Positions 7,751-11,200 of a stretch of DNA of 14,221 nucleotides are shown here, piece by piece. The notes beneath the pieces were generated by a model that saw nothing but the letters and a program-made list of their open reading frames with translations, made no database searches and was not told the origin of the DNA. Numbering within the stretch: the first letter of the stretch is position 1; each line of letters starts with the position of its first letter. The stretch spans positions 1 to 14,221 of the forward strand of contig JACRCS010000139.1 of assembly GCA_016218905.1 (NCBI GenBank). The letters run 5' to 3'. The DNA comes from Deltaproteobacteria bacterium. GTDB taxonomy: Bacteria; Desulfobacterota_C; Deferrisomatia; Deferrisomatales; JACRMM01. The position numbers and the translations under genes are program-made.

Positions 7751-9124
7751 ATGCGAGTGGCACTGGTTCTGCTGTCGGCGTGCTTCATGCTCCTCACCGC
7801 GGAGTACGCGAACGCGGAAACCCGTTCCAGAAGCATCGACGTAATCTATACGGGCGACGTACGGGGAACCTTGGGCATCTGCGGCTGAGCGCGAACTCCG
7901 CTTGGCGGTCTTGCCAAGAAGGCTCTATATGTAAGCTCGCTCCGGAAGAAAGGGGAGGGCATCCTCCTCATCGACGGCGGGAACTTGTTGTTCTCGAAAC
8001 CCAACTTGAACAAGCTGGAGCAGAAGCAGCTTACAATGAAGGCCGCGAAGATCATCGAGGCCTACAACGCTATGGAAGTTCAAGCGGTCGCCCTGGGCCC
8101 TCTGGACTTTGCCGCGGGCTTCGATCGGCTGATGGAGTACGGGCGAGCGGCTAAGTTCCCGCTGCTGTGTGCGAATCTGCTGGCAAAGGAGACGGGGCAA
8201 CCGGTCTTCCAAGCTTCCATTGTCGTGCAAGAGCATGGCGTCAAGGCCGGCGTCATCGGGGTCCTGGACAGCGGATTCTCTTTGCCGAAGTCCGATCCGT
8301 GGGCGGAGAAGGTGAGACTCGCCCCCATCCACCCGATCGTCAAGAAGCTCGCAAAGCGGCTTCGAGACGAGGGATGCGGGATCGTGGTGGTCCTCTCGTC
8401 GCTGGAGCCGAAGAAGCTGAGACTCCTCGCCAAGGGTACGGAAGGAGTGGACCTCTTCATCGGCGGCGACCCGATGGACAAGCTCGTGCTGCCCTACGGC
8501 GCCCGGGGCTCCCTCATCGCCTGCTCGAGCCAGCTCGGCAAGTACGTGGGTCACGTGGCGCTCACCCTCGACGAGAGGGGGAGCGTGGCCGGGATGAAAC
8601 ACTCCTTCGTGGCCATGAAGCCGGAACAGCGCGACGATCCCACGGTGCGCCGGATCGTCGACGGTTACTACAAGGCGGTGGCTCTCCTGAGACGCAACGA
8701 GCCCGCCATGTACGTGAAGGAGGCCGAGGAGACGGTGAATCTCCAGCATGACAACCCGGTCTTCGTCTCCTCGGAGGAGTGCCGGAACTGCCACGGCGCG
8801 GAGTACCGGAAGTGGAAGGCGACGAAACACGCGCAGGCGCTTGCGAACCTCCCGGCCGCGGCGCGGGACAACATCGAGTGCCTGGAGTGTCACGTGACCG
8901 GGTTCGGCAAGTGGGGAGGCTTCAGCGGGCTTCGCGCGAAGCCCGACCTCTCCGGGATTCAGTGCGAGGAGTGCCACGGGCCGGGCAGCTCCCACCCGGC
9001 GACGCTCGCGATGACGAGGGGCAAGGCCGTGCAGGCAGTGTGCAAGCGCTGCCACACGAGGTCCCGGAGCCCGGATTTCGACCTGCGCGAGTACCTGTCC
9101 AGGATCGCGTGCCGCCCCGGCTGA
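7751..9124 (+). CDS. Probable selenoprotein: UshA-like domain fused to a tetraheme cytochrome c domain
   Basis: One frame runs 7751-9124 and is interrupted only by TGA at 7886-7888. If the TGA is read as selenocysteine the product is 457 residues with Sec46. The start is ATG with GAGGG at 7742-7746. Residues 1-22 form a Sec signal peptide ending ANA before Glu23, so export is expected; a Cys at 11 (LSAC) makes a lipoprotein conceivable. Residues 29-330 resemble the UshA/5'-nucleotidase metallophosphatase fold: IDVIYTGDVRG, ICG-Sec, LGGLAKKA, LLIDGGN, GPLDF and VDLFIGG. However, the usual ligands are replaced (Arg38 for His in DxH, Pro117-Leu118 for Asn-His in GNHD, Ser217 for His), so phosphatase activity is doubtful. 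Four CxxCH heme sites follow at Cys344, 377, 405 and 431. A gene caller would begin at the internal ATG at 7985 and lose the signal peptide and CGU motif. Alternatives: a nonsense mutation or a TGC-to-TGA sequence error. Confidence 0.8.
7887..7925 (+). promoter_or_regulatory. Candidate bacterial SECIS element after in-frame UGA
   Basis: Directly after the TGA (7886-7888), a perfect 6-bp stem CTTGGC (7901-7906) / GCCAAG (7913-7918) closes a GGTCTT loop, with 12 bases between the TGA and the stem. A lower stem GAGC (7887-7890) / GCTC (7922-7925) ties in the UGA, giving a 39-base hairpin. From established knowledge, the E. coli fdhF SECIS has the same size, 11 bases between UGA and upper stem, and a GGUCU apical loop contacted by SelB. 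The hairpin is compatible with the coded LGGLAK segment. Structure is seen; SelB recognition is inferred. Confidence 0.75.
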
Positions 9125-9361: not shown

Positions 9362-11200
9362 ATGAAGTTCCGATTCCATTCGTTTCGTTTGATCGTCCTC
9401 GCACTGCTTGCAACTGTATCGACTCTGGGACTGTGGAAGGCGGCTGAGGCGGGCATCGACGACAGCCAGTGCTTGGGCTGTCACGACAGCATCGACAGCG
9501 AGGCCTTCGCGAAGTCCGTGCACGGCAGACACGCCTGCAACAGCTGCCATTTCGACGTCGTCGATCTCGACGAGCATCAGAGCTGCGGCTCGAAGACCCA
9601 GGAGAAGGTGGAGACCTGCCACCGTTGCCATCCTTCGGAAGGCAAGGAGCACTTCTCTTCCGTCCACATGCTCAACGACATCAAGTGTGCAGACTGCCAT
9701 TCCAACGTCCACACGATCAAGAAGTGGGACGGCAACAAGAAGAGCGTCGTGGCGAAGTGCGTCGGCTGCCACGACGGAGAGGCCTACACCGCCAGCGTCC
9801 ACGGGACGGCGGTCGAAAAGGGCAACAACGACTCCGCTTCCTGTGCCGATTGCCACGGCCTCCACAAGATCCAAGAAGTCGGCGACCCGAAGACCCACGA
9901 GTACCGCGCCTTCCACACCGAGACCTGCCAGAAGTGCCACGCCAACGCGGCGCTGATGCGGAAGAACAAGGTCTACACGATCGCGGTCAAGACGTACGAA
10001 GAGAGCTACCACGGGAAGGTCGAGGCGCTGGGCTCGGCGCTCGCGGCGGGCTGCTCCGACTGCCACACGGCCCACTCCGTCCTGCCGCGCTCCGACGCGA
10101 ACTCGAGCATCTGCGAGGAGAACCTGCCGAAGACGTGCGGCTCCTGCCACGCCCACTCCTCGGTGAGCTTCGCGCAGTTCCTCCCGCACGCGGACCATCG
10201 GGACCGGAAGCAGTACCCGATCCTCTACTACACCTGGCTGACCATGACCACGCTGCTGGTCTCGGTCTTCGCCGTGTTCTGGTTTCACACGCTCCTCTGG
10301 TGGCGCACGGCCTACTGGTCGAAGCGTGCGCGCCTCATGCAGGGCAACTACGAGATCAGCCACGTGAGCGAGCCCCTGCGCCCCTACCGCAGGTTCTCCG
10401 GCTTCGACCGGATGCTCCACCTTCTCATGATGCTCAGCTTCCTCGGCCTCGTCGTCTCGGGGCTCCCGCTCAAGTTCGCCTCGGCTCCGTGGGCGCCGGG
10501 CGTCATGGGCCTCCTGGGCGGACCGCACAACGCGGGGCTGGTCCATCGCATCTGTGCGATCGTCACCTTCTTCTACTTCGGAGCCTGCTTCCTCTACATC
10601 CTCTACTTCCTGTTCGTGAAGCGGACGGGGGAGGGGTTCTGGGAGAAGCTCTTCGGGCCCGACTCGCTCTTCCCGACGCTGCGTGACGTGGCCGATATCA
10701 CCAACATGTTCCGCTGGTTCCTGGGAAAGGGCACGGAGCCCCACTTCGACCGCTGGACCTATTGGGAGAAGTTCGACTTCCTGGCGGTCTTCTGGGGCAT
10801 GTTCGCCATCTGCGGCTCCGGGCTGCTCCTCTGGTTCCCGGAGTTCTTCGGCAGGCTGCTGCCCGGCTGGGTCTTCAACGTCGCGATCATCGTCCACAGC
10901 GATGAAGCGCTGCTCGCCACCGGGTTCATCTTCACCGTGCACTTCTTCAATACGCACTTCCGGCCCGGGAAGTTCCCGATGGACATGGTGATCTTCACCG
11001 GAAAGCTCCCGAAGGCGGAGCTCTGGGAGGAGCGGAAGGATTGGCGAGCTCGCCTGGAGGCTGACGGGAAGATTCTGGAGCACGTGGCGAAGCCGAGCCA
11101 TCCGCTCCTGGAGCTCATGGCTCAGCTGATCGGGTTTACGGCGCTCGGCGTCGGCCTCGTCTGCGTCGCGCTCATCGTCTGGGGCTTCCTCGCCCACTGA
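9362..11200 (+). CDS. CbcL-like inner-membrane nonaheme cytochrome c / cytochrome b fusion
   Basis: A 612-residue protein. Residues 1-30 are a signal sequence ending AEA. Nine CxxCH heme-c sites follow (Cys37, 59, 86, 109, 133, 161, 189, 231, 259), placing a multiheme domain in the periplasm. About six membrane segments then follow (near 285-312, 349-372, 395-420, 472-497, 506-535, 582-610), resembling the HydC/FdnI-type diheme cytochrome b; candidate b-heme ligands are His353, His395, His512, His527 and His532. Nine c hemes plus this b domain is the architecture described for Geobacter sulfurreducens CbcL, which moves electrons from menaquinol to the periplasm for low-potential metal reduction. 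By analogy this protein is a quinol-periplasm electron conduit; substrate and direction are inferred. The start has GGGGGAGAG. It stands 237 bases after the UshA-like cytochrome gene, so the two may share a pathway but probably have separate control. Confidence 0.9.
   Translation: MKFRFHSFRLIVLALLATVSTLGLWKAAEAGIDDSQCLGCHDSIDSEAFAKSVHGRHACNSCHFDVVDLDEHQSCGSKTQEKVETCHRCHPSEGKEHFSSVHMLNDIKCADCHSNVHTIKKWDGNKKSVVAKCVGCHDGEAYTASVHGTAVEKGNNDSASCADCHGLHKIQEVGDPKTHEYRAFHTETCQKCHANAALMRKNKVYTIAVKTYEESYHGKVEALGSALAAGCSDCHTAHSVLPRSDANSSICEENLPKTCGSCHAHSSVSFAQFLPHADHRDRKQYPILYYTWLTMTTLLVSVFAVFWFHTLLWWRTAYWSKRARLMQGNYEISHVSEPLRPYRRFSGFDRMLHLLMMLSFLGLVVSGLPLKFASAPWAPGVMGLLGGPHNAGLVHRICAIVTFFYFGACFLYILYFLFVKRTGEGFWEKLFGPDSLFPTLRDVADITNMFRWFLGKGTEPHFDRWTYWEKFDFLAVFWGMFAICGSGLLLWFPEFFGRLLPGWVFNVAIIVHSDEALLATGFIFTVHFFNTHFRPGKFPMDMVIFTGKLPKAELWEERKDWRARLEADGKILEHVAKPSHPLLELMAQLIGFTALGVGLVCVALIVWGFLAH

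Follow-up and report, generated by a model that had tools for sequence, protein, structure and literature searches.

The locus described here raises the question of whether an in-frame TGA near the start of a gene for a multiheme protein is read as selenocysteine (Sec), and what kind of protein would then result. The window, by which we mean the whole 14,221-nucleotide stretch that was analysed, carries on its + strand a 457-residue frame at 7751-9124, and the parts of this gene given below lie on the same strand. We found by translation that this frame has no stop besides the TGA of codon 46, at 7886-7888, and the one that ends it at 9122-9124, also TGA. A first-pass annotation had described one open frame running from ATG 7751, past a single internal TGA, through four CxxCH heme sites, and translation bore this out. 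The internal TGA stands at the third position of a C-G-U motif (Cys44, Gly45, Sec46; 7880-7888) with the context ICGU-ARTPLGGLAKK, and the frame aligns at full length with TGA-containing relatives. Its ATG end encodes a hydrophobic N-terminus, taken for a signal peptide by eye only. The database gene call (P0002, 372 amino acids) takes TTG 8006, 3' of the TGA, as its start; likewise, the gene calls of 11 of 11 close homologs with sequence examined start after the TGA. Calls truncated in this way lose both the signal peptide and the CxU motif.

We searched 395 genomes from the phylum of genome G013, and 114 matched at 1e-20. The loci used are the best 30 places of that search, that is, the best-scoring rows rather than a random draw. 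The window, L053 and 26 of the best 30 loci make up 28 rows with TGA; 4 of the best 30 together with L054, L055, L056 and L058 make up 8 rows with Cys. Left out of these rows were L069 (heme part only) and L071 (without CxC/U, ordinary nucleotidase-like), and the additional short UGA copies that L094 and L095 carry stand outside the count. A separate scan of genome contigs gave 52 loci that matched mainly in the heme part and was uninformative. At aligned codon 46, the 36 rows carry TGA in 28 and TGC or TGT in 8, with no other stop there; the alternation of Cys and Sec that the first-pass annotation had proposed as a check was thus found. Such alternation at one position is associated with redox sites. 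A tree built on 32 rows (28 Sec, 4 Cys) groups the window with L073, L074 and L075 at a support of 100/100; the Sec label requires 2 changes on this tree, and there are long branches among the Cys rows. The three nearest genomes are G300, G259 and G320; the relatives that they encode are 47-54% identical to the window protein, and identity runs at 47-63% over residues 27-45 and at 53-59% over residues 47-78, on either side of the TGA. The motif reads ICGU or MCGU in the window and these three relatives, as against the PCGU that gives the family discussed below its name. One genome, G005, holds both a Cys copy (L055) and a Sec copy (L069) of the family.

The first-pass annotation had also placed a hairpin with a GGUCUU loop 12 bases past the TGA, and we confirmed it at 7901-7918, where a 6-bp stem (CTTGGC with GCCAAG) closes the loop GGTCTT. 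We found TGA-N15-GGCGGTCTNGCC a single time in the window, and none of 200 shuffles contained it. Folding energy gives the hairpin weak support: the fold of the 24-nt hairpin (z = -2.0) was matched by 6 of 200 shuffles, and that of a 40-nt stretch (z = -0.38) by 62 of 200. The silent positions are more telling. Of the 56 residues that 85% or more of the 28 Sec rows share, synonymous variation is lacking only at codons 52, 53 and 55, which are GGC in 28/28, GGT in 28/28 and GCC in 26/26 Ala rows, respectively; these codons form the inner stem, the loop and again the inner stem. The Leu codon between 53 and 55, whose third base is the end of the loop, varies (CTG 18, CTT 9, CTC 1). Third positions that are frozen in the Sec rows are variable in the 8 Cys rows, where codon 52 is GGC in 5 and GGA, GGT and GGG in 1 each, and codon 53 is GGA in 3, GGG in 2 and GGC, GGT and AGC in 1 each. 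Pairs were counted on 17 rows, namely 16 of the 28 Sec rows and a paralog in L095: 85.3% of hairpin cells were paired, compared with 16.7-45.1% in slid frames. The second-outermost pair fails in 10/17 rows and the third in 4/17, so that only the inner three are constant, and no compensatory change on both sides was seen in the 17 rows. Because the pair counts hold no such change, the support for the hairpin is the freezing of silent sites, which is the strongest evidence in the sequences that it acts as a SECIS element.

These data bear on whether the TGA is instead a real stop, whether in a pseudogene, through a sequencing error or ahead of a downstream gene start. Such a reading would fit the P0002 call, which begins 3' of the TGA, and the Rfam search of 7860-7960, which gave no family match at E<=5 at the hairpin. 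It would have to account, however, for a TGA at the same codon in 27 further rows, drawn from different genomes, with no other stop there in any of the 36, for coding-type conservation on both sides, and for silent positions that are frozen only at the hairpin. We consider a real stop extremely improbable.

The machinery for Sec insertion is present in the genomes of the nearest relatives. All of selA, selB, selD and tRNA-Sec scored above cut-off in G300, G259 and G320. Across the 11 genomes searched, selB exceeded its cut-off in 8, tRNA-Sec in 10, selA in 11 and selD in 10; across 14 control genomes, the corresponding counts were 2, 5, 1 and 2. Since 5 of the 14 controls exceed it, the Rfam cut-off of 47 bits for tRNA-Sec is permissive; the scores of the three nearest genomes are 71-74 bits. 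Two genomes with a TGA copy gave incomplete sets, with neither selB nor tRNA-Sec found over cut-off in G013 and no selB over cut-off in G054, and these absences may be assembly gaps. Reassignment of TGA to another amino acid in the organism's code would explain the open frame and nothing else, and it conflicts with the end of the gene at TGA 9122-9124, with Cys at the same column in relatives that lack the TGA, and with the Sec machinery of the nearest genomes; we give it even less credence than a real stop.

The window protein belongs to a family that is already curated. It scores 339.9 bits against NF041198 (NCBIfam; UshA_like_PCGU, UshA-like (seleno)protein, equivalog), for which the cut-off is 275, and all 62 aligned homologs match this model at 1e-5. 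It also shows C-G-[U/C] followed by GGLA[KR], a trait that we drew from this alignment and that is not the curated definition. The copy in G013 matches NF041198 positions 19-518 with one TGA. The heme half of the window protein alone matches positions 394-517 of 519 at 4.6e-30, and for this reason the fusion of an UshA-like part to four hemes belongs to the known family. The first-pass annotation had called the protein a "new-type" selenoprotein; that claim did not survive, and a new selenoprotein type is ruled out, as NF041198 covers the protein above its cut-off with the heme half included. What did stand was the description of Sec within a CxU motif, of a SECIS-like hairpin and of an UshA-like domain joined to four hemes, which the alignment, the family model and the CxxCH sites support. 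We regard Sec insertion, together with membership of NF041198, as close to certain.

What the protein might do depends in part on its UshA-like domain, for which the best NF041198 stretch covers residues 9-275 (7775-8575). We examined what we take to be the seven metal-ligand positions by E. coli UshA numbering, using alignment to a 5'-nucleotidase-like reference, P0036, a procedure that puts one or more ligands of even the nucleotidase P0041 in the wrong place. By this alignment, the window keeps 1 of the 7 UshA-type ligand positions, the first Asp. Among the 28 Sec rows, D41 is kept in 24, H43 in 3, D84 in 6, N116 in 0, H217 in 6, H252 in 7 and position 254 (Gln) in 1; the Asn116 position holds Asn in 0 of all 36 rows. 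A search of the window protein with PF00149, a metallophosphoesterase test, gave no match at E<=0.1. Because the metal ligands are mostly lost, a nucleotidase reaction appears unlikely, perhaps less so for some members of the family; a working nucleotidase was rejected for the window protein.

SoxB, which acts on protein-bound thiosulfate, offers a second hydrolase to consider. If the protein were an active hydrolase like UshA or SoxB, Sec would be a catalytic or sulfur-handling residue, and it is true that SoxB is the second-best NCBIfam match (2.1e-15) and that 60 of the 62 aligned members match it at 1e-5. The score, however, is 56 bits against the TIGR04486 cut-off of 550, at which membership in SoxB was rejected, and the loss of metal ligands extends from the window to the family. 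We thus consider a working hydrolase very unlikely. The C-G-U loop directly follows the first metal motif of the UshA family, and this position, with the other ligands mostly lost, could also suit a soft-ligand site that replaces the UshA site. Cys and Sec are good soft ligands. Cys44 and Sec46 would in that case bind a metal or metalloid ion, and the hemes would be a separate electron-transfer tail. Such a site would lack an obvious third soft ligand, however, as the list of invariant and 90% conserved positions contains no Cys beyond those of CxxCH and CxU/CxC. We regard metal binding as unlikely, if less so than hydrolysis, and favor a redox role for the Cys-Sec pair.

The second half of the protein is a cytochrome c554-like tetraheme region (8729-9082; NF041198 positions 394-517). 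Its four heme sites are CRNCH at residue 344 (8780-8794), CLECH at residue 377 (8879-8893), CEECH at residue 405 (8963-8977) and CKRCH at residue 431 (9041-9055), and four CxxCH motifs are present in 32/32 full-length rows. Besides the His residues of the heme sites, the only invariant His residues are His360 and His415, and at least one heme may for this reason lack a His distal ligand; cytochrome c554 has a heme of this kind. Nearer the C-terminus, Cys454 (window 9110-9112, in the context RIAC, RVAC or RLGC) recurs in most of the close relatives compared and is absent from P0023. This Cys could be a further redox residue.

The gene neighborhood offered little guide to function. At the three nearest loci, the order is dprA, DUF494, topA, DUF167, YggT, proC, yggS, maf and then the UshA-like gene, where dprA, DUF494, DUF167 and maf were named by Pfam, and the others are what we presume topA, YggT, proC and yggS to be from their sequences. 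Among six neighborhoods, the dprA-to-maf genes adjoin the gene in these three only. Two of these three loci also clearly have a DivIVA-like gene, for which the third gave a marginal match. Downstream of the gene, at 9362-11200 of the window, the next gene encodes a multiheme cytochrome c with a cytochrome b561-like membrane part. Among the six neighborhoods, only L115 and L118 have stretches with at least three CxxCH besides the gene itself; L115:11324-13405 and L118:4505-6739 encode large NrfH-like multiheme proteins with 17 and 16 CxxCH, respectively. A conserved operon was rejected as a guide to function, as L115 alone of the three nearest loci shares the downstream cytochrome in synteny, and no partner or substrate pointed to a particular reaction.

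The family extends well beyond the window's group. At 1e-30, NF041198 matched 74 of 80 genomes in the phylum of G006 and 48 of 247 in the phylum of G011, in each case both with and without TGA. We took 42 loci from these two other phyla (40, plus L057 and L069). Thirty of the 42 gave a C-x-TGA row; a narrower filter had passed 23 rows (15 Sec, 8 Cys). Downstream CxxCH motifs number four in 25 of the 30 C-x-TGA rows and none in 5. A shorter UGA-containing UshA-like paralog (PCA-U) adjoins the full-length gene in L095 (around 426-1454) and in L094; no heme match was found for the L095 copy, whose NF041198 score of 164.5 bits is below cut-off. Because such heme-less Sec relatives exist (the upstream copy in L095 and the 5 of 30 rows from the two other phyla), the CxU motif can act without hemes of its own.

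A GGTCT loop is present in only 4 of these 30 rows (L057, L069, L152 and L157), which contradicts the notion that it is universal in the family. A second hairpin, beginning about eight bases further 3', is possible with 6 or more of its 8 pairs in 22 of the 30 rows. These rows are L121, L123, L124, L127, L128, L130-L132, L135-L137, L139, L140, L148, L150, L153, L155, L156, L158, L160, L057 and L069. Over all 30 rows, 79.2% of second-hairpin cells are paired, compared with 27-51% when slid; for the window-type hairpin, pairing at its three innermost pairs likewise reaches 79% of cells in these rows. The narrower 15-row set had given 92.5% for the second hairpin, and we use the all-30 figure. 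Single pairs of the second hairpin show compensatory types, such as GC, GT, TA, CG and AT; in the window's group (28 rows), 42% of its cells pair. L141-L146, L152 and L157 fit neither the second hairpin nor the full window type. In this exploratory, post hoc comparison of sequences, the second, covarying hairpin emerges as a lineage-specific candidate Sec signal.

Taken with the evidence for Sec insertion, these findings suggest the following model. SelB, bound to the hairpin at 7901-7918, would deliver Sec-tRNA to the UGA at 7886-7888, a step that the comparison of sequences strongly supports. The protein would then be exported, to judge from its N-terminus and its c-type heme sites. Its N-terminal UshA-family domain, with most metal-binding residues apparently lost, would carry the C-G-U center in the loop after the first metal motif. 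There the Cys-Sec pair may carry out two-electron chemistry on a small substrate, perhaps a sulfur, selenium or other oxyanion species, and the four hemes would pass or take electrons singly between this pair and the periplasmic cytochrome pool. We place a redox role in which the exported CxU protein exchanges electrons with its own hemes at slightly better than even, and the redox reading of the first-pass annotation is accordingly plausible. We hold the explanation as a whole, from NF041198 membership through SelB-read Sec and export to a Cys-Sec redox center wired to hemes, to be moderately probable. A broader proposal, which we advance tentatively and at somewhat less than even, is that NF041198 comprises widespread self-wired periplasmic selenoenzymes in which the metal site of a nucleotidase-derived domain gave way to a Cys-Sec center plus a tetraheme wire and the Sec signal was re-invented between lineages. 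The window's group would then use the hairpin with the GGUCU loop, about +15 to +32 from the TGA; most Sec members of the two other phyla would use the covarying one, about +23 to +41 from the TGA, whose loop is mostly GGA or GGC; and the rest would use yet another signal.

The family itself is not new. A COG0737 UshA-like selenoprotein family with a CxU motif was in print in 2008 (PMC2398784), and it was tabulated again in 2022 (PMC9312934) and, with NF041198, in 2026 (PMC13188914). Heme receives no mention in the accessible main text of PMC2398784 or PMC13188914, both from the open-licence literature; the term multiheme is absent from the accessible text of PMC9312934, and its single mention in that of PMC13188914 concerns ExtKL. 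The accessible portion of PMC5029168 mentions none of UshA, COG0737, cytochrome or Geobacter. In such open-licence literature as was accessible, we found no statement of the usual four hemes, the mostly lost hydrolase metal site or the lineage-differing Sec signal, nor an assigned function for the family of 2008, to which the window adds a well-supported member. Together, the four hemes, the lost metal site and the differing Sec signals would turn a misleading "UshA-like" hydrolase label into a testable redox hypothesis.

Comparison with known systems places the protein as follows. ExtKL (NF040886) is another known combination of Sec and c-type heme, listed in the accessible table of PMC13188914; the window scores 15.2 bits against its cut-off of 250, and membership was rejected. 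A Geobacter cluster described in the accessible part of PMC1914089, which we infer to be ExtKL, has five N-terminal hemes and a C-terminal part unrelated to that of the window protein. NF049981 (UshA-like (seleno)protein family 2), a model of 262 positions whose motif is given as CxxU in the accessible part of PMC13188914, shares a related N-terminal part with the window protein (2.4e-7), but the window falls below its cut-off (30.5 versus 140 bits). The UshA 5'-nucleotidase and SoxB are related by sequence to the window domain, in which, however, the metal ligands are mostly lost and the scores lie far under the cut-offs. Finally, the C-terminal part resembles cytochrome c554 (1bvb, 2.2e-11, residues 338-418; PF13435), but unlike c554, the tetraheme region of the window protein is fused to a CxU domain.
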